Below the pieces are notes generated by a model that saw only the letters and a program-made list of their open reading frames with translations, was not told where the DNA came from and did no database searches. From Lentzea fradiae (GTDB taxonomy: Bacteria; Actinomycetota; Actinomycetes; Mycobacteriales; Pseudonocardiaceae): 64,000 bases of DNA. Below are positions 22,082-51,182 of the stretch, piece by piece; the stretch's first letter is position 1; each line of letters starts with the position of its first letter. The translations under genes and the position numbers were made by a program. The stretch covers positions 186,001-250,000 of the forward strand of contig NZ_FNCC01000008.1 of NCBI RefSeq assembly GCF_900100955.1. The letters run 5' to 3'.

Positions 22082-22112
22082 GTCTTCAACTTTTTGTGGA
22101 CGTCTTCAACTT
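22082..22112 (+). promoter_or_regulatory. Direct repeats upstream of the ABC operon
   Basis: GTCTTCAACTT occurs at 22082-22092 and 22102-22112, exactly 20 bp apart, about 20 bp upstream of the first gene's start. They look like a paired activator/repressor site or a promoter element. The first gene has no clear ribosome site. Confidence 0.5.
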
Positions 22113-22133
22113 CACGTTGTACGGTCCCCGGTC

Positions 22134-23039
22134 ATGATGCCGCGCCTGCTCGTGACCTCGTTGCTCGTGCTGGGGCTCGCCGCCTGCGGGTCCACGTCCG
22201 ACACCGGTACGGAGAACTCCGCGCCCCCGTCCTCCGACCTGGGCTCCGTCCGCAAGGACGACGCGCTCGCCGCGCTGCTGCCGCCCGAGATCGCCTCGTC
22301 GGGCAAGCTCCGGGTCGGGTCGAACATCCAGAACCCGCCGAACAACTTCTACGACGCCGACGGCAAGACGCCGATCGGGTCGGAGGTCGACCTGATCAAG
22401 GCGGTCGCCGCGAAGCTCGGGCTCACCGCCGAGCACAGCGACATGGCGTTCAGCTCGCTGATCACGAGCCTGGAGACCGGCCGCGTCGACGTGACCATGG
22501 CCGCGATGAACGACACCGCCGAGCGCCAGCAGAAGATCGACTTCGTCGACTACTTCACCTCCGGCATCACGATCATGGTGCAGAAGGGCAACCCGCAGGG
22601 CGTCAAGTCCGTCGACGACCTGTGCGGCAAGGGCATCGCGGTCAACCTCGGCAGCTCGCAGGAGCAGTTCGCCAAGGAGCAGAGCGCGAAGTGCCAGGCG
22701 GCGGGCAAGCCGGAGGTGCAGCTCAGCGTCACCGACAGCGACACCGGCAACCAGAACCAGCTGCGCACCGGCCGCGTCGCGGCGATCCTGAACGACCTGC
22801 CGACCGCCGTGTACGTGTCGAAGACCGCGGGCGACGGCGAGTACTTCGAGGTCGTGCCTCTCGCGCCGATCAACGGCGGCCCGTACGGCATCGGCGTCAA
22901 CAAGAAGAACGCGAAGCTGTCCGAGGCGATCAAGGGCGCGCTGCAGTCGCTGATCGACGACGGCACCTACGACAAGATCCTCACCACCTGGGACATCAAG
23001 CAGGGTGCGATCACGAAGGCCGCGATCAATGGCCAGTGA
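22134..23039 (+). CDS. Polar amino-acid ABC transporter substrate-binding lipoprotein
   Basis: The 301-residue protein has a lipobox (LLVLGLAACGS, Cys near residue 16). The mature part has GKLRVGSNIQNPPNNFYDADG, EVDLIKAVAAKLGL and SLETGRVDVTMAAMNDTAERQQ, the family 3 solute-binding fold for polar amino acids (Gln, Glu, Arg, Lys, His or opines). It is the first gene of a four-gene operon; the permease start lies within its last codons. Confidence 0.92.
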   Translation: MMPRLLVTSLLVLGLAACGSTSDTGTENSAPPSSDLGSVRKDDALAALLPPEIASSGKLRVGSNIQNPPNNFYDADGKTPIGSEVDLIKAVAAKLGLTAEHSDMAFSSLITSLETGRVDVTMAAMNDTAERQQKIDFVDYFTSGITIMVQKGNPQGVKSVDDLCGKGIAVNLGSSQEQFAKEQSAKCQAAGKPEVQLSVTDSDTGNQNQLRTGRVAAILNDLPTAVYVSKTAGDGEYFEVVPLAPINGGPYGIGVNKKNAKLSEAIKGALQSLIDDGTYDKILTTWDIKQGAITKAAINGQ

Positions 23040-23865
23040 CCTGCGCACCGCCGAGGAGGCCCCGTCCTCCGAGCTCGTCGTCGTGCCGCTGCGCCACCCC
23101 TGGCGGTGGGTCAGCGGCGCGGTGATCCTGCTGGTCATCGCCGGTCTCGGCTGGGCGATGTCCGGGGCGGCGATCCAGTGGGAGGACGTCCCGGGGTTCT
23201 TCACGCACCCGGTGATGCTCGAAGGTCTGCTCAACACCATCGTGCTCGCGGTCGCCGCGCAGGGCGGCGCGATCCTGCTCGGCGTCGTGATCGCGCTGAT
23301 GAGGCTCTCCGCGAACCCGGTCGCGCGGTGGTTCGCGGTCGGCTACATCTGGCTGTTCCGCGGCCTGCCGGTGCTGCTGCAGATCCTGATCTGGTTCAAC
23401 CTCGCGCTGGTGTTCCAGAACATCAGCATCCCGATGCTGTTCTCGGTGCCCACCAACGTGGTCATGACCGCGTTCGTCGCGGCGCTGCTCGGCCTGGGGC
23501 TCAACGAGAGCGCCTACATGGCCGAGATCGTCCGCGCGGGCCTGAGCAGCGTCGACTCCGGGCAGACCGAGGCGGCCAAGTCGATCGGCATGACGCCGTT
23601 CACGACGCTGCGCCGGGTCGTCCTGCCGCAGGCGATGCGCGTGATCATCCCGCCGACCGGCAACAACTTCATCAACATGATCAAGGGCACCTCGATGGCG
23701 TCGGTGATCGCCTTCCTGGAGCTCATCCACGCCGCGAACAACATCTCGTCGCGCAACCTGGAGATCATGGAGACCCTGTTCGCCGCCGCGGCCTGGTACC
23801 TCGTGATGGTGTCCCTCGCGTCGATCGGGCAGCACTACCTGGAGCGTGCGTATGGCCCTCGTTGA
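23029..23865 (+). CDS. Polar amino-acid ABC transporter permease
   Basis: The 278-residue protein has an extended N-terminus then five or more membrane helices and the EAA-type loop [23 protein letters not shown], which contacts the ATPase. The HisM/GlnP-type segment [12 protein letters not shown] opens the membrane domain. It overlaps the binding-protein gene by 11 bp, so one permease likely forms a homodimeric channel. Confidence 0.93.
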
Positions 23866-24610
23866 GGCGGTCGGAGTCCGCAAGTCGTTCGGCCACACCG
23901 AGGTTCTCAAGGGCATCGACCTGGAGGTCGAGCGCGGCGAGGTCGTGTGCCTGCTCGGCCCGTCGGGCGCGGGCAAGTCGACGTTCCTGCGCTGCGTGAA
24001 CCACCTGGAGACGATCGACGCCGGCCGGATCTGGGTCGACGGCGTGCCGGTCGGGTTCCGGTCGGCGAACGGCAAGCTCTACGAGCTGCGCGAGCGGGAG
24101 GCCGCCCACCAGCGCCGCGACGTCGGCATGGTGTTCCAGCGGTTCAACCTCTTCCCGCACCGCACGGCGCTGGAGAACGTCATGGAGGGCCCCGTCCAGG
24201 TGCTTGGGCGTGACCGCGCGGAGGTGCGCGCGGAGGCGCTGGCGCTGCTGGAGAGGGTGGGGCTGGCCGAGAAGGCGTCCTCCTACCCGGCGCAGCTCTC
24301 CGGCGGCCAGCAGCAGCGCGTCGCCATCGCGCGGGCCCTCGCGATGAAACCGAAGCTGATGCTGTTCGACGAGCCCACGTCCGCGCTGGACCCGGAGCTG
24401 GTCGGCGAGGTGCTCGACGTCATGACGTCGCTCGCCCGCGAAGGCATGACGATGATCGTGGTCACCCACGAGATCGGCTTCGCCCGCTCGGTCGCCGACC
24501 GCGTGGTGTTCCTCGTCGACGGCGCGGTGGTGGAGACGGGCAGTCCGGCCGACGTGCTGGACAATCCGCGGCAGCCGCGCACACGACAGTTCCTCGCAAA
24601 GGTGCTCTGA
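23852..24610 (+). CDS. Amino-acid ABC transporter ATP-binding protein
   Basis: The 252-residue ATPase has Walker A (GPSGAGKST), Q-loop, signature motif [15 protein letters not shown], Walker B ([14 protein letters not shown]) and the switch His (VVTHE). It powers uptake by the HisP/GlnQ family. ATG 23852 is chosen; GTG 23846 is possible. It overlaps the permease gene and is followed after 1 bp by the aminotransferase-regulator fusion. Confidence 0.95.
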
Positions 24611-24611
24611 C

Positions 24612-26300
24612 TTGATCGACGCCTCGTACCTCTCCCAGTTCCGCGAACCGGAGGGGTATCTCGACTTCGCCCGCTTCGGCCCGCCGTCCCTGCCCGTGGT
24701 GACGGCGACCGCGCGCCTGATGGACCAGGCGTCGCTCGCCGGTCCCGCCACAGTGGACACGCTGATGCGCGAGGAGCAGCGGGTGAAGGCCGCCGTGGCA
24801 CGGTTGTGCCGCACCGACACCGACCACGTGGCGCTCGTGCCGAACACGTCGACCGGCCTGTTCCAGGCGGCGTTCGGCCTGACCGGCACGGTCATGTACT
24901 CGGCGGCGGAGTTCCCGTCCAACACTTACCCGTGGGTGCGGGCGGGCCTGCCGTCCGTCCTGCTGGACGGTCCCGTGACGCCTTCGGCGGTTTCCTCACG
25001 TGTTTCCGAGGTGTCCGCGCTGTCGGTGTCCGCCGTGGACTTCCGCACCGGCCACCGCGCCGACCTCGCCGGGCTGCGTGAAGCCGTCGGCGACCGCCTG
25101 CTGATCGTCGACGGCATCCAGGGCTTCGGCGTCGTCGACGAACCGTGGGAGCTGGCCGACGTCCTGGTGGTCGGCGGCCAGAAGTGGCTGCGCGCCGGGT
25201 GGGGCACCGGTTTCGTGGTGCTGTCCGACCGTGCCCTGGACCGCCTGTCCCCGGTCCTGTCCGGCTGGACGGGCGCGGTCGACGCGGGCCTGTTCGACAA
25301 CGAGGTCCACGACGCCGCCCCGGACGCCGCCGCGTGGAACATCACGAACCTCTCCCCGGTCGTGTCCGGCGCCTTCGCCGAAGCCCTGGAGCTGGTCGAG
25401 CTGGCCGGCGTTCCCGCACTGGACTCCGCGGTCGGCGCCCTGGTCGCGGAACTGGAGGACATCGTCCTGTCGTGCGGCGGCGAGATCGTCTCCGCCCGGG
25501 ACCGCCGGGCGGGCATCCTCGCGTTCACCATGCCCCACGCGGCCCCGGTCGTGGGCGAGGCACTGAACGCCTTCGGCGTCACCGCCACGGTCCGCCCCGA
25601 GCACGTGCGCCTGTCCCCGCACGCCACCACGTCCCGCGGCACCCTGGAACGCGTCCGAGCCGCCCTCCGCTCGCTCTCCGGCACGGCCGCCTCCCCGGTC
25701 CCGGCCGCCCTGTCCGCACTGGTCCCGACCGTGGACTCGCTGGCATCGGCCCTGGGCCCGGACACCGAGGTGGTGGTGCACGACCTGTCCCGCCTGCCGA
25801 ACTCGATCATCGCCATCGCGGGCACCCTGACCGGCAGGCAGGTGGGCGGCCCGATGACGGACCTGCTGCTGGGCCTGGTCCGCCGCGGCACCACCACCGA
25901 CATGCCCGGCTACGAGACCTACGCCCCGGACGGCCGCGCCATCTGGTCGTCCACCACCTTCGTCCGCGACGCGTCCGGCGTCGCCATCGGCTGCCTGTGC
26001 GTCAACAAACTGGCCGCCCACGAGGCATCGGGCCCCGTCGAGTCGTTCCCGCAGGACGTGGACACGCTCCAGCGGGTCCTCGTCGAGAAGGCGGTCGCCG
26101 ACGTGGGCGTGCCGGTCGAGCTGATGAAGAAGGTGCACAAGTCGCAGGTCGTGCGGGTGCTGGACGAGGCGGGGTTCTTCCTGATCCGCGACTCGGTCGA
26201 CCACCTGGCGGGGGTGCTCGGGGTGACCCGCTACACGATCTACAACTACCTCAACGAGAGCCGGGGGACCGGTCAGACGACGGCGGCCTCGGAGAGGTAG
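24612..26300 (+). CDS. Class-V aminotransferase fused to YheO-like PAS and HTH regulator
   Basis: The 562-residue protein starts at TTG 24612, one base after the ATPase stop. Residues 1-360 are a PLP-dependent class-V (cysteine desulfurase/selenocysteine lyase-like) fold: VDGIQGFG (Asp167, PLP ring) and GGQKWLRAG with the Schiff-base Lys191. Residues 367-470 match the YheO-like PAS domain (VDSLASALGPDTEVVVHDLS, then AGTLTGRQVGGPMTDLLL). Residues 490-550 match the YheO C-terminal HTH (LMKKVHKSQVVRVLDEAGFF, then DHLAGVLGVTRYTIYNYLNES). YheO/DauR proteins regulate D-amino-acid use. Here one chain could process an imported amino acid and sense it for gene control. The direct operon link with a polar amino-acid transporter supports that. 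The exact substrate is unknown. Confidence 0.85.
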   Translation: MIDASYLSQFREPEGYLDFARFGPPSLPVVTATARLMDQASLAGPATVDTLMREEQRVKAAVARLCRTDTDHVALVPNTSTGLFQAAFGLTGTVMYSAAEFPSNTYPWVRAGLPSVLLDGPVTPSAVSSRVSEVSALSVSAVDFRTGHRADLAGLREAVGDRLLIVDGIQGFGVVDEPWELADVLVVGGQKWLRAGWGTGFVVLSDRALDRLSPVLSGWTGAVDAGLFDNEVHDAAPDAAAWNITNLSPVVSGAFAEALELVELAGVPALDSAVGALVAELEDIVLSCGGEIVSARDRRAGILAFTMPHAAPVVGEALNAFGVTATVRPEHVRLSPHATTSRGTLERVRAALRSLSGTAASPVPAALSALVPTVDSLASALGPDTEVVVHDLSRLPNSIIAIAGTLTGRQVGGPMTDLLLGLVRRGTTTDMPGYETYAPDGRAIWSSTTFVRDASGVAIGCLCVNKLAAHEASGPVESFPQDVDTLQRVLVEKAVADVGVPVELMKKVHKSQVVRVLDEAGFFLIRDSVDHLAGVLGVTRYTIYNYLNESRGTGQTTAASER

Positions 26301-27085
26301 CGGCGCAGCGTCGCGCGGGTGCGTTCCTCGTCCAGCGCGACCTTCCTCAGCTGGGTGAAGTGCTGACGGGCCTTGGCGATCGCGCCGGGGTCCTGCACGA
26401 ACACCTTGGCGAACTCGCTCTCGCTGTAGGCGACCGGCTTGGCCTTCTCGTACTCCCAGAGCATGAAACCGGCCGAGACGGCGGCGACCTCCGCGGGCAC
26501 GAGCCGGATCAGGTGCGCCTTGGTGAGCAGCCGCCGGTACTGGCCCTCCATCACCTCGCGGCTGCCCATCGGCTGCCGCAGCGCCAGTTCGTGGACGTAG
26601 AACACGCAGTCCGGCCTGTCGTGCCGGTTCAGGATCGTCTGCCGGTCGGTCCGGCACCGCACGAGCGCGGGAATGCGCTCCGGCGCGACCAGCCCGGTCA
26701 CCTCGTACACGCCCTCCGCGTACTCCGCCGTCTGGAACAGGCCTGGCACCAGGAGCGGGTCGTAGCTGATGATCGTTCTGGCCGTGGACTCCGCCATCGC
26801 CACCGTGCGCAGGTTGCCGGACAGCTGCACGATGTACTCGTCGAACGCGTATCGATAGCGGTGCTTGAAGTCCTCGTACGCGTCGATGTCCTTGTCGCAG
26901 GCCGTGAAGTACTGCACCAGGTCGACCTCGCTGGCGCGTGCCTTGCCGTGCTCGATGGTCGACACCTTGCTGGGGTCCCAGCCGAGCTTCCTGGCGAGCT
27001 CGTGGCCGTTCAGGCCGGTGCACTTCTCACGCATGCGCCGCAGCTCATCGCCCAGGTCCCTGCTGTACGCGGTGGATGGAGTCAT
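26273..27085 (-). CDS. Scr1-family HTH transcriptional regulator (DUF5753)
   Basis: The 270-residue protein has an N-terminal XRE helix-turn-helix (LRRMREKCTGLNGHELARKLGWDP, then SKVSTIEHGKARAS) and the DUF5753 ligand domain (LLVPGLFQTAEYAEGVYE, then YVHELALRQPMG), as in Scr1-type regulators of Streptomyces. These usually pair with a small DUF397 protein; none lies here, since the downstream side is occupied by a convergent gene that overlaps it by 28 bp. Its targets are unknown. Confidence 0.9.
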   Translation of the reverse strand: MTPSTAYSRDLGDELRRMREKCTGLNGHELARKLGWDPSKVSTIEHGKARASEVDLVQYFTACDKDIDAYEDFKHRYRYAFDEYIVQLSGNLRTVAMAESTARTIISYDPLLVPGLFQTAEYAEGVYEVTGLVAPERIPALVRCRTDRQTILNRHDRPDCVFYVHELALRQPMGSREVMEGQYRRLLTKAHLIRLVPAEVAAVSAGFMLWEYEKAKPVAYSESEFAKVFVQDPGAIAKARQHFTQLRKVALDEERTRATLRRYLSEAAVV

Positions 27086-50201: not shown

Positions 50202-51182
50202 TCATCGGGGACCGAACCGCGCGACCGCTTGCGGGGCGTACCCGTAGAAACCGGGAAGTCCACCCGTGTGGAGGAACACGACCGGCGTGTCGCCGTGTGC
50301 CGCGATCTCGCGGAGCTTCACCGCGGCCTTGCCCGTGTACACCGGGTCGAGCAGCACGCCCTCGGTCTCGGCGAAGAGCTTCAGCACGTCCCACATCTCC
50401 GGCGTCGGCACGCCGTAGCCCGGTCCGACCGTGTCGTCGGTGAAGGTGACGTGGGACAGCTCCGGCGCGGGCGCGCCGAGCAGGGCGGCGGCCTCGGTGG
50501 CCAGGGCGCGCAGCTCCTGCTCCGTCTCCGCGGCGGGGTGCGAGACGCTCGGGGCGTGGACGGTGCCGGGCCAGCCGAGCAGCTCGGTGCCGAGCGCGAT
50601 GCCCGCCGCCGTGGCGCCGCTGCCCTGCGGCACGACGATCCTCGCCGCGCCGATGCCGCGGTCGTGCAGCTGGTCCACCAGCTCGGCGGCCGCCGCGACG
50701 TAGCCGAGGGTGCCCAGGCCGTTGGAACCGCCGACCGGCAGCGTCACGGCCTTGTCGTGGTTCACCCGCGCGTAGACCTCGTCGGCCTCCTCGGCGTTCG
50801 CGCACACGTGCACGGTGGCGCCGAACATGTGGTCCAGCACGATGTTGCCGGAACGCTCGTACGCGTCGCCGTCCATCGGCACCTTGGCGGTGAGCACCAG
50901 CTCGCACCGCAGGCCGAGCTTCGCACACGCCGCCGCGGTCTGGCGGCCGTGGTTGGTCTGCAACGCGCCGAACGTGATGACCGTGTCCGCACCGTCGGCG
51001 AGGGCGCGGCCGAGCAGGAACTCCAGCTTGCGCAGCTTGTTGCCGCCCGCGCCCAGCCCGTTGACGTCGTCGCGCTTGAGCAGGACCGGAGGGCCGCCGA
51101 GCGCCGCCGTGAGCCGAGGGGCGTCGTCGAGCGGGGTCGGCCAGCTGCCCAGTGCGACTCGGGGGAACGCGCTCAGGTCCAT
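50202..51182 (-). CDS. 1-aminocyclopropane-1-carboxylate deaminase/D-cysteine desulfhydrase family
   Basis: The 326-residue PLP fold type II enzyme starts MDLSAFPRVALGSWPTPLDD. It has KRDDVNGLGAGGNKLRKLEF with the PLP lysine in GNKLRK, TFGALQTNHGRQTAAACAKL and VPQGSGATAAGIALG (PLP phosphate loop). The family contains both ACC deaminases and D-cysteine desulfhydrases; without the diagnostic active-site residues being checked, D-cysteine desulfhydrase is slightly favoured. It stands alone on the minus strand. Confidence 0.9.
   Translation of the reverse strand: MDLSAFPRVALGSWPTPLDDAPRLTAALGGPPVLLKRDDVNGLGAGGNKLRKLEFLLGRALADGADTVITFGALQTNHGRQTAAACAKLGLRCELVLTAKVPMDGDAYERSGNIVLDHMFGATVHVCANAEEADEVYARVNHDKAVTLPVGGSNGLGTLGYVAAAAELVDQLHDRGIGAARIVVPQGSGATAAGIALGTELLGWPGTVHAPSVSHPAAETEQELRALATEAAALLGAPAPELSHVTFTDDTVGPGYGVPTPEMWDVLKLFAETEGVLLDPVYTGKAAVKLREIAAHGDTPVVFLHTGGLPGFYGYAPQAVARFGPR

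Follow-up and report, generated by a model that had tools for sequence, protein, structure and literature searches.

In a 64,000-nucleotide stretch of the Lentzea fradiae genome (the window), a single gene at positions 24612–26300 of the forward strand encodes a 562-residue protein that joins a class-V pyridoxal 5′-phosphate (PLP) enzyme fold to a YheO-type regulator, and that forms the fourth gene of an amino-acid ATP-binding cassette (ABC) importer operon. We think it likely that this fusion is an autoregulatory trigger enzyme that represses its own importer operon. In such a system, the N-terminal PLP half would act on an α-amino acid delivered by the importer of the same operon, and the C-terminal PAS–helix-turn-helix (HTH) half would bind two tandem palindromes on the operon promoter. 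Without substrate, the fusion would repress the operon; once the imported amino acid, or the product made from it, engaged the PAS domain (and/or the PLP site), repression would be lifted, so that importer and enzyme would be made together. We infer that the fusion binds DNA, that it represses and does not activate, that it is catalytic, and what its ligand is; the computed support consists of the domains, the retained active-site residues, the four-gene operon, the conserved palindromes on a promoter-like element, specificity for a single locus, and an importer and a regulator half that are inherited together and often lost together.

The open reading frame runs from a TTG start at 24612 without interruption to a stop ending at 26300 (562 codons). 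In agreement with a preliminary description of this DNA, its start codon lies one base past the stop of the ATPase gene of an amino-acid ABC importer (24610); AAAGGTG is found a few bases 5′ of the start. That description had also assigned a class-V PLP fold and both parts of a YheO/DauR-type regulator to the protein, and the Pfam search that it called for returned all three domains in the order Aminotran_5, PAS_6, HTH_22. Aminotran_5 (PF00266) covers residues 57–311 (E 5.1e-7, 29.4 bits against a cut-off of 21.5), within an enzyme half of residues 1–355 (24612–25676, + strand). The YheO-like PAS_6 domain (PF08348) spans residues 367–465 (25710–26006, +; E 8.9e-26, 90.5 bits, cut-off 27), followed by the DNA-binding HTH_22 domain (PF13309) at residues 490–548 (26079–26255, +; E 6.9e-20, 71.3 bits, cut-off 29.6). 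The protein therefore contains a YheO-type regulator that is enzyme-fused, and not a plain two-domain stand-alone one. All three domains are present in each of six other full-length fusions scanned (loci L122, L149, L037, L091, L106 and L111; loci and genomes carry L and G numbers throughout), and the linkers between them are highly variable, with a mean identity in the aligned fusion proteins of 13% at residues 356–366 and 39% at residues 466–483.

The enzyme half passes the Pfam cut-off and carries the PLP lysine, which places it in the class-V aminotransferase superfamily (PF00266). Asp167, Gln170, Lys191, Arg328 and Arg333 are invariant in all 30 aligned fusion proteins, and both Lys191, in the motif GGQKWLRAG, and Asp167 align with SufS structures, Lys191 with their lysine. 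The best structural and profile matches are SufS cysteine desulfurases, selenocysteine lyase, carbon sulfoxide lyase, C-DES and kynureninase, and, judged from its sequence, this half is probably a catalytic class-V PLP enzyme of the SufS/kynureninase fold. It would join an active site of intact type to a DNA-binding domain, as expected of a trigger enzyme. Identity as a cysteine desulfurase (SufS/CsdA) was considered and rejected: Phe101, found in 30 of 30 fusion proteins, replaces the first His of EHHAN, and the RPEHVRL loop after Arg328 holds no Cys, so the enzyme is not a canonical desulfurase. The catalytic identity of these SufS residues is assumed by us, apart from mutant names given in PDB titles. 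The window protein reaches no NCBIfam cut-off, and a phmmer search with its single sequence against the PDB returned no matches.

The three genes upstream of the fusion, with SBP_bac_3, BPD_transp_1 and ABC_tran domains together, constitute a polar amino-acid ABC importer (the PAAT family). They encode a substrate-binding lipoprotein (22134–23039, +; ATG at 22134 or 22137; SBP_bac_3, E 1.1e-32), which best matches amino-acid-binding proteins of solved structure (AncQR, GlnH), a permease of the GlnP/cystine-permease type (23029–23865, +; BPD_transp_1, E 2.1e-22; TIGR01726 above cut-off) and a GlnQ-type ATPase (23852–24610, +; ABC_tran, E 3.3e-36), which scores 327.8 bits on the GlnQ model, under its cut-off of 379. 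The cystine-permease model gives the permease its best score, and carbon–sulfur (C–S) lyases are among the structural neighbours of the enzyme; a cysteine-like substrate would fit but is not claimed, since the models are sub-cut-off or generic. Specificity for D-amino acids is unsupported, as it would follow only from the name of DauR and from what we take to be a family resemblance to it.

The survey covered samples of 200 genomes from the family and 396 from the phylum, together with a scan of named genomes, one per species, in which 80 of 121 relatives were kept; weaker relatives in the family sample are those among the matches listed. The full-length fusion occurs in 48 of the 200 family genomes at 65–100% identity, and among named relatives, Lentzea species come closest (93% identity in L. 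aerocolonigenes). The kept loci come from Lentzea, Saccharothrix, Umezawaea, Actinosynnema, Kibdelosporangium, Amycolatopsis, Herbihabitans and Pseudonocardia, with further ones from records titled Mycobacterium/Mycolicibacterium, Nocardia and Rhodococcus, and by record titles the fusion is present in at least nine genera. The architecture is thus widespread in Pseudonocardiaceae, occurs also in some Mycobacteriaceae and Nocardiaceae, and is not unique. A survey of its neighbouring transporter genes, as had been proposed, found the order binding protein–permease–ATPase–enzyme–regulator at 79 of the 80 named-genome loci; the exception is L149, a metagenome-assembled genome in which the fusion stands alone.

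Importer and fusion are inherited together. An orthologue of the binding protein (59–100% identity) was found in 49 of the 200 family genomes, namely in all 48 with the fusion and in one of the 152 others (G006), and the next best relative of the binding protein reaches 42% among the matches listed at E ≤ 1e-50. The importer genes of G006 show 59–73% identity; the 0.83 kb of contig past its ATPase gene holds no enzyme or regulator match, and this only importer without a fusion (L209) has no TTCAAC-N5-GTTG site 5′ of its binding-protein gene.

The direct repeats at the front of the operon had been put forward as a natural target of the regulator. GTCTTCAACTT is indeed present twice, at 22082–22092 and 22102–22112, but the two copies are the left halves of tandem inverted repeats, TTCAACTTTTTGTGGAC (22085–22101) and TTCAACTTCACGTTGTA (22105–22121). 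Simple direct repeats are thus replaced by tandem palindromes, whereas the idea of a likely target gains from the phylogenetic footprint, the single-locus specificity and the co-loss described below. Copy 1 of the predicted operator reads TTCAAC-N5-GTGGAC, with its right half overlapping a predicted −35 element; copy 2, TTCAAC-N5-GTTGTA, lies 20 bp further on, with its right half entering a predicted −10 element. Across genera, copy 1 follows the pattern TTCAAC-N5-GTkGAC and the copies are 20–22 bp apart. Of 80 upstream regions, 73, among them that of the window, contain both copies according to a strict routine, with a spacing of 20 bp in 68 and of 22 bp in five; five mycobacterial loci have the spacing of 22 instead of 20. 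Seven loci (L135, L136, L137, L139, L142, L143 and L146) keep copy 1 and, by eye, a degenerate copy 2 at the same distance. In 79 distinct aligned upstream regions, conservation in the half-site columns is 0.92–1.00 for copy 2 and likewise for copy 1 save one column at 0.46 (in this profile, copy 1 is out of register for the five loci whose spacing is 22 bp), and 23 upstream flanking columns average 0.22 bits.

The predicted promoter (22097–22125, +) consists of a −35 element TGGACG (22097–22102), a 17-bp spacer and a −10 element TACGGT (22120–22125). The right half of copy 1 provides the −35 element, TTGACc in Amycolatopsis and TGGACg in Lentzea, and the end of copy 2 opens a −10 element of the form TAnnnT, whose T, A and T are invariant in the 79 regions; at a copy spacing of 20 bp, the spacer measures 17 bp. 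Since only 8 bases separate the −10 element from the ATG at 22134, the message is probably leaderless in Lentzea.

The predicted site appears to be specific to this locus. Its exact copy 2 form, TTCAACN5GTTGTA, gave 71 matches in 52 genomes (tallied by hand). Of the 48 genomes with the fusion, 47 have a match at its operon (G065 being without an exact one), and matches also lie at the remnant locus in two of four remnant genomes (G184 and G195, not G110 or G114). Off-locus matches numbered 22, against 21 for a reversed-pattern control, so that a wider regulon was rejected and the regulon is predicted to comprise this operon only; the genome of the window has a single match of this exact form. 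According to this footprint, the site would lie only at the promoter of the fusion's own gene and transporter, as befits a trigger enzyme. TTCAACN5GTTGAA, the perfect palindrome, does not occur in the genome of the window; it has matches in 21 of the 52 genomes, two of which were placed, at the remnant locus of G110 and 5′ of a stand-alone YheO gene in G060. A second TTCAAC-N5-GTTGWM match in G000 (C20:59583) falls between IclR-like and amidohydrolase-like genes (L206, by eye). The closest stand-alone YheO genes have similar palindromes just upstream, two of them 22 bp apart in L069 and others at both genes of L046, and L047 has only a weak palindrome between its regulator and aminotransferase genes. 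Pairs of GTCAAC-N5-GTTGAC palindromes beside enzyme-only relatives, upstream of a Clp_N-domain gene in L057 (4671–4716) and of its counterpart in L058 (7659–7703), are probably sites of another regulator.

Natural variants illustrate the co-loss of importer and regulator. Eight loci, L149 among them, lack the importer, perhaps through four events; PAS has been lost in seven of these and HTH also in five of the seven, so importer loss is mostly accompanied by decay of the regulatory half, with the enzyme retained. In a tree of the enzyme part (58 trimmed rows, 29 of them fusions, being the window's and 28 of the 80 loci; L205 was left out), rows with an incomplete regulator nest within fusion groups three times: L052 groups with Kibdelosporangium (100/100), L043/L044/L051 (99/99) fall within the Saccharothrix–Umezawaea group, and L053/L054/L056 group with A. 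antarctica (100/97). Some forks are open, and L055 and L057–L063 may have lost the regulator or never had it.

In L043 and L044 the enzyme and the HTH are retained, with a low-complexity stretch at the PAS position and no PAS_6 by Pfam, and both operator copies persist with few mismatches. L051 and L052 have the enzyme only, and L149 keeps all three domains, with both operator copies directly 5′ of the fusion gene and copy 1 one base off. Compared with L037, L052 is missing 2,702 bp (importer) and 745 bp (regulator) as separate gaps in DNA that is otherwise 89.7–93.6% identical, and its operator is changed, the left half of copy 2 reading CTCAGC while GTTGTAGCTT remains, as does the −10. The 745-bp gap takes in the regulator and ~110 bp past its stop, save for a 24-nt island. 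We rejected the end of the L052 enzyme gene as an HTH scar, because the 24-nt piece matches L037 residues 474–482, between the domains (PAS_6 371–474, HTH_22 494–554), and the L052 sequence past it comes from beyond the fusion stop.

Other arrangements of the same parts were also seen (gene calls were made with a simple codon-usage script). In L053 (5960–8263) and L054 (5837–8131), a zinc alcohol dehydrogenase takes the place of the regulator at the C-terminus of the same enzyme family, L053 scoring 373 bits on TIGR03366 (HpnZ) against a cut-off of 328. In L047 (664–10346), an unfused YheO regulator, a class-V aminotransferase, a RidA-type protein and an amidohydrolase are encoded side by side, divergently from a peptide ABC transporter; RidA proteins are described in published accounts as processing imines from PLP enzymes. 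The operon was also found outside Pseudonocardiaceae, in L119, L122, L123, L134 and L141 (Mycobacterium/Mycolicibacterium) and L135 (Nocardia), and the nesting of these loci within Amycolatopsis in the enzyme tree (from which L123 is absent) suggests horizontal transfer. Two records are possibly mislabelled strains: L086 (Nocardia sp. NRRL S-836) has a Lentzea-like sequence, 90% identical to the window, and L103 (Rhodococcus rhodnii) is Kibdelosporangium-like, with operator and identity as in L101/L105.

Across the phylum, the enzyme half was detected at E ≤ 1e-25 in 11 of the 396 genomes, the window's own counted, and the ten other loci (L196–L205) have no regulator-half or binding-protein relative nearby (tblastn, 1e-4). 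ABC ATPases lie near the enzyme relative in L201, L202 and L203, that of L203 with genes for a permease and a binding protein of NlpA type beside it; this NlpA-type (methionine-family) importer, ~1.7 kb from the class-V relative, stands with a second aminotransferase-like gene on the opposite strand (L203:748–6183). The enzyme-only relatives in L198, L200, L203 and L204, all from one distant family, have a conserved context, between undecaprenyl-diphosphate-synthase-like and PhoH-like genes (by Pfam for L198, by eye for the other loci). PAS_6 is present in 21 of the 396 genomes, and L207 (2111–3787), from a distant phylum member, is another PAS_6 fusion (558 residues), in which PAS_6 precedes an AAA ATPase domain. 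In the window itself, a convergent HTH_31/DUF5753 regulator gene (26273–27085, −) overlaps the final 28 bp of the fusion gene, and an unrelated second PLP enzyme gene of the PALP family (50202–51182, −) lies 24 kb off.

Several observations weigh against an autoregulatory trigger enzyme of this kind. The structure model is of moderate quality (predicted local distance difference test, pLDDT, 75.8; predicted template modelling score, pTM, 0.58), with the loop at residues 191–197 below 50. The enzyme is separable from the importer, as 15 sampled genomes, among the matches listed, keep an enzyme relative (56–68% identity) with no complete fusion, no importer and no binding-protein orthologue (best match 41%), so that the substrate need not be the imported compound. 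A strict consensus promoter scan reports no promoter at the operator, and we infer the promoter from conservation because the generic scan does not call it. L149 retains a whole fusion and operator without importer, and L043 and L044 their HTH without importer or PAS; in L051 the regulator is lost, yet operator copy 2 is intact and a weaker copy 1 persists, so operator decay does not always follow regulator loss. Lastly, such a palindrome is missing upstream of L067, a stand-alone YheO gene that is more distantly related and belongs to the same genome as the window.

Other readings of the locus were weighed on the same evidence. That a sequencing error or the loss of a stop codon ran two genes into one is hardly conceivable: enzyme-only relatives do end near the fusion junction, but the frame is open for 553–595 codons at the 80 named-genome loci and at 30 loci of the family sample, its sole stop being the gene end (many match rows of the family sample count a stop within the match; where read, the sole stop was the gene end). 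The three domains recur in all seven full-length fusions scanned, the window's included, and 48 full-length copies in the family genomes together with 80 in named genomes exclude chance or artefact. Activation of the operon by the regulatory half, instead of repression, seems to us quite unlikely. YheO-type regulators are little characterised, and a PAS regulator described as activating genes, SLCG_7083, is placed by its authors as MmyB-like and not YheO (PMC10717218); the predicted sites, however, overlie the promoter-like element, covering −35 and entering −10, and regulator-less L052 keeps its enzyme and promoter-like bases with operator copy 2 changed, which fits a dispensable repressor. 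Cj1387c, a YheO PAS6–HTH protein, is moreover reported to repress its adjacent gene (PMC4519771), which also favours repression. Two independent functions on one chain, with the fusion fixing only co-expression and stoichiometry and the PAS domain sensing an unrelated signal such as redox state, would accord with the very variable linkers, suggestive of loosely tethered modules, and with an enzyme half that also occurs alone or fused to alcohol dehydrogenase. This is nonetheless improbable, since enzyme, importer and regulator share one operon at 79 of 80 loci, and since the more distant locus L047, where the YheO regulator is encoded on its own next to class-V aminotransferase and RidA-type genes, demonstrates that the pairing also exists unfused.

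The PLP half may instead be a ligand sensor and not (only) an enzyme, as in MocR/GabR, with an external aldimine switching DNA binding and the PAS domain acting as a relay or being dispensable. MocR is a precedent for a PLP fold as sensor, as described in PMC5320631, and the natural variants L043 and L044, which have enzyme, HTH and tandem operator but a low-complexity stretch where the PAS would be, make such a role for the PLP site possible. We regard it as unlikely, because the catalytic-type residues are all retained and the enzyme stands alone in regulator-less L051, L052 and L056 and in the relatives L055 and L057–L063, which argues that it has a job without DNA binding; besides, L043 and L044 are also importer-less, so their HTH may merely be decaying. 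Doubtful too, in our view, is an enzymatically active class-V analogue of MocR, in which the state of the PLP site, with or without substrate bound as external aldimine, would directly set DNA binding at the tandem operator, with PAS a later add-on or relay. The enzyme–linker–HTH proteins of L043 and L044, behind their tandem operator, would then be its minimal form, and a catalyst would gauge its own substrate supply and control the importer that provides it.

To our knowledge, few enzyme–regulator proteins control their own transporter. The textbook trigger enzyme is PutA, a proline dehydrogenase and repressor of putA–putP built from ribbon-helix-helix and proline dehydrogenase domains; the Pfam scan of the fusion shows neither domain. 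As an autoregulatory repressor, the fusion would be closest in mechanism to PutA, in which enzyme and DNA-binding repressor share one chain with a single target, controlling their own gene and that of the substrate transporter. PutA is described as binding solely in the putA–putP interval, putP being the transporter gene, and as repressing in the absence of proline (PMC8249747). The fusion differs in being composed of unrelated parts, a class-V PLP fold and a YheO PAS–HTH regulator, in having an ABC importer in the same operon, and in that its catalysis, ligand and repression are predicted. By its parts it is neither PutA nor MocR. MocR/GabR proteins likewise place a PLP-enzyme fold and a DNA-binding domain on one chain and use repeated boxes as operator, but with a GntR-type DNA-binding domain and an aspartate-aminotransferase-like sensor, as far as described in PMC5320631. 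The fusion has an N-terminal class-V fold, C-terminal PAS and HTH_22 domains and enzyme relatives living alone, and no GntR-type winged HTH or class-I fold domain was found in the Pfam scan. With YheO/DauR-type regulators such as Campylobacter Cj1387c/CfiR it shares the same two domains and, by prediction, control of an adjacent gene or operon, and the RidA-type neighbour of the unfused relative L047 has its like in C. jejuni; the stand-alone regulators of this type retrieved here measure ~220–250 residues, whereas that of the fusion is joined to a 355-residue PLP enzyme. The preliminary description knew of no described protein with this layout, and we likewise found no description of the fusion in open-access full text; domain databases may include the layout.

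PAS6 was counted in only five architectures by the 2015 Campylobacter paper, in which knowledge of this PAS group is called very limited and the signal of Cj1387c is given as unknown (PMC4519771); for E. coli K-12, five trigger enzymes are counted in PMC8249747. If our reading is correct, the fusion would be a trigger enzyme that combines a YheO regulator with a PLP enzyme of class V, and its predicted operator is directly testable. The fused enzyme and the dedicated importer narrow the candidate ligands, which would make the question of the signal of YheO-type PAS domains testable, and the natural series of full, PAS-less and regulator-less forms suggests ready-made constructs.

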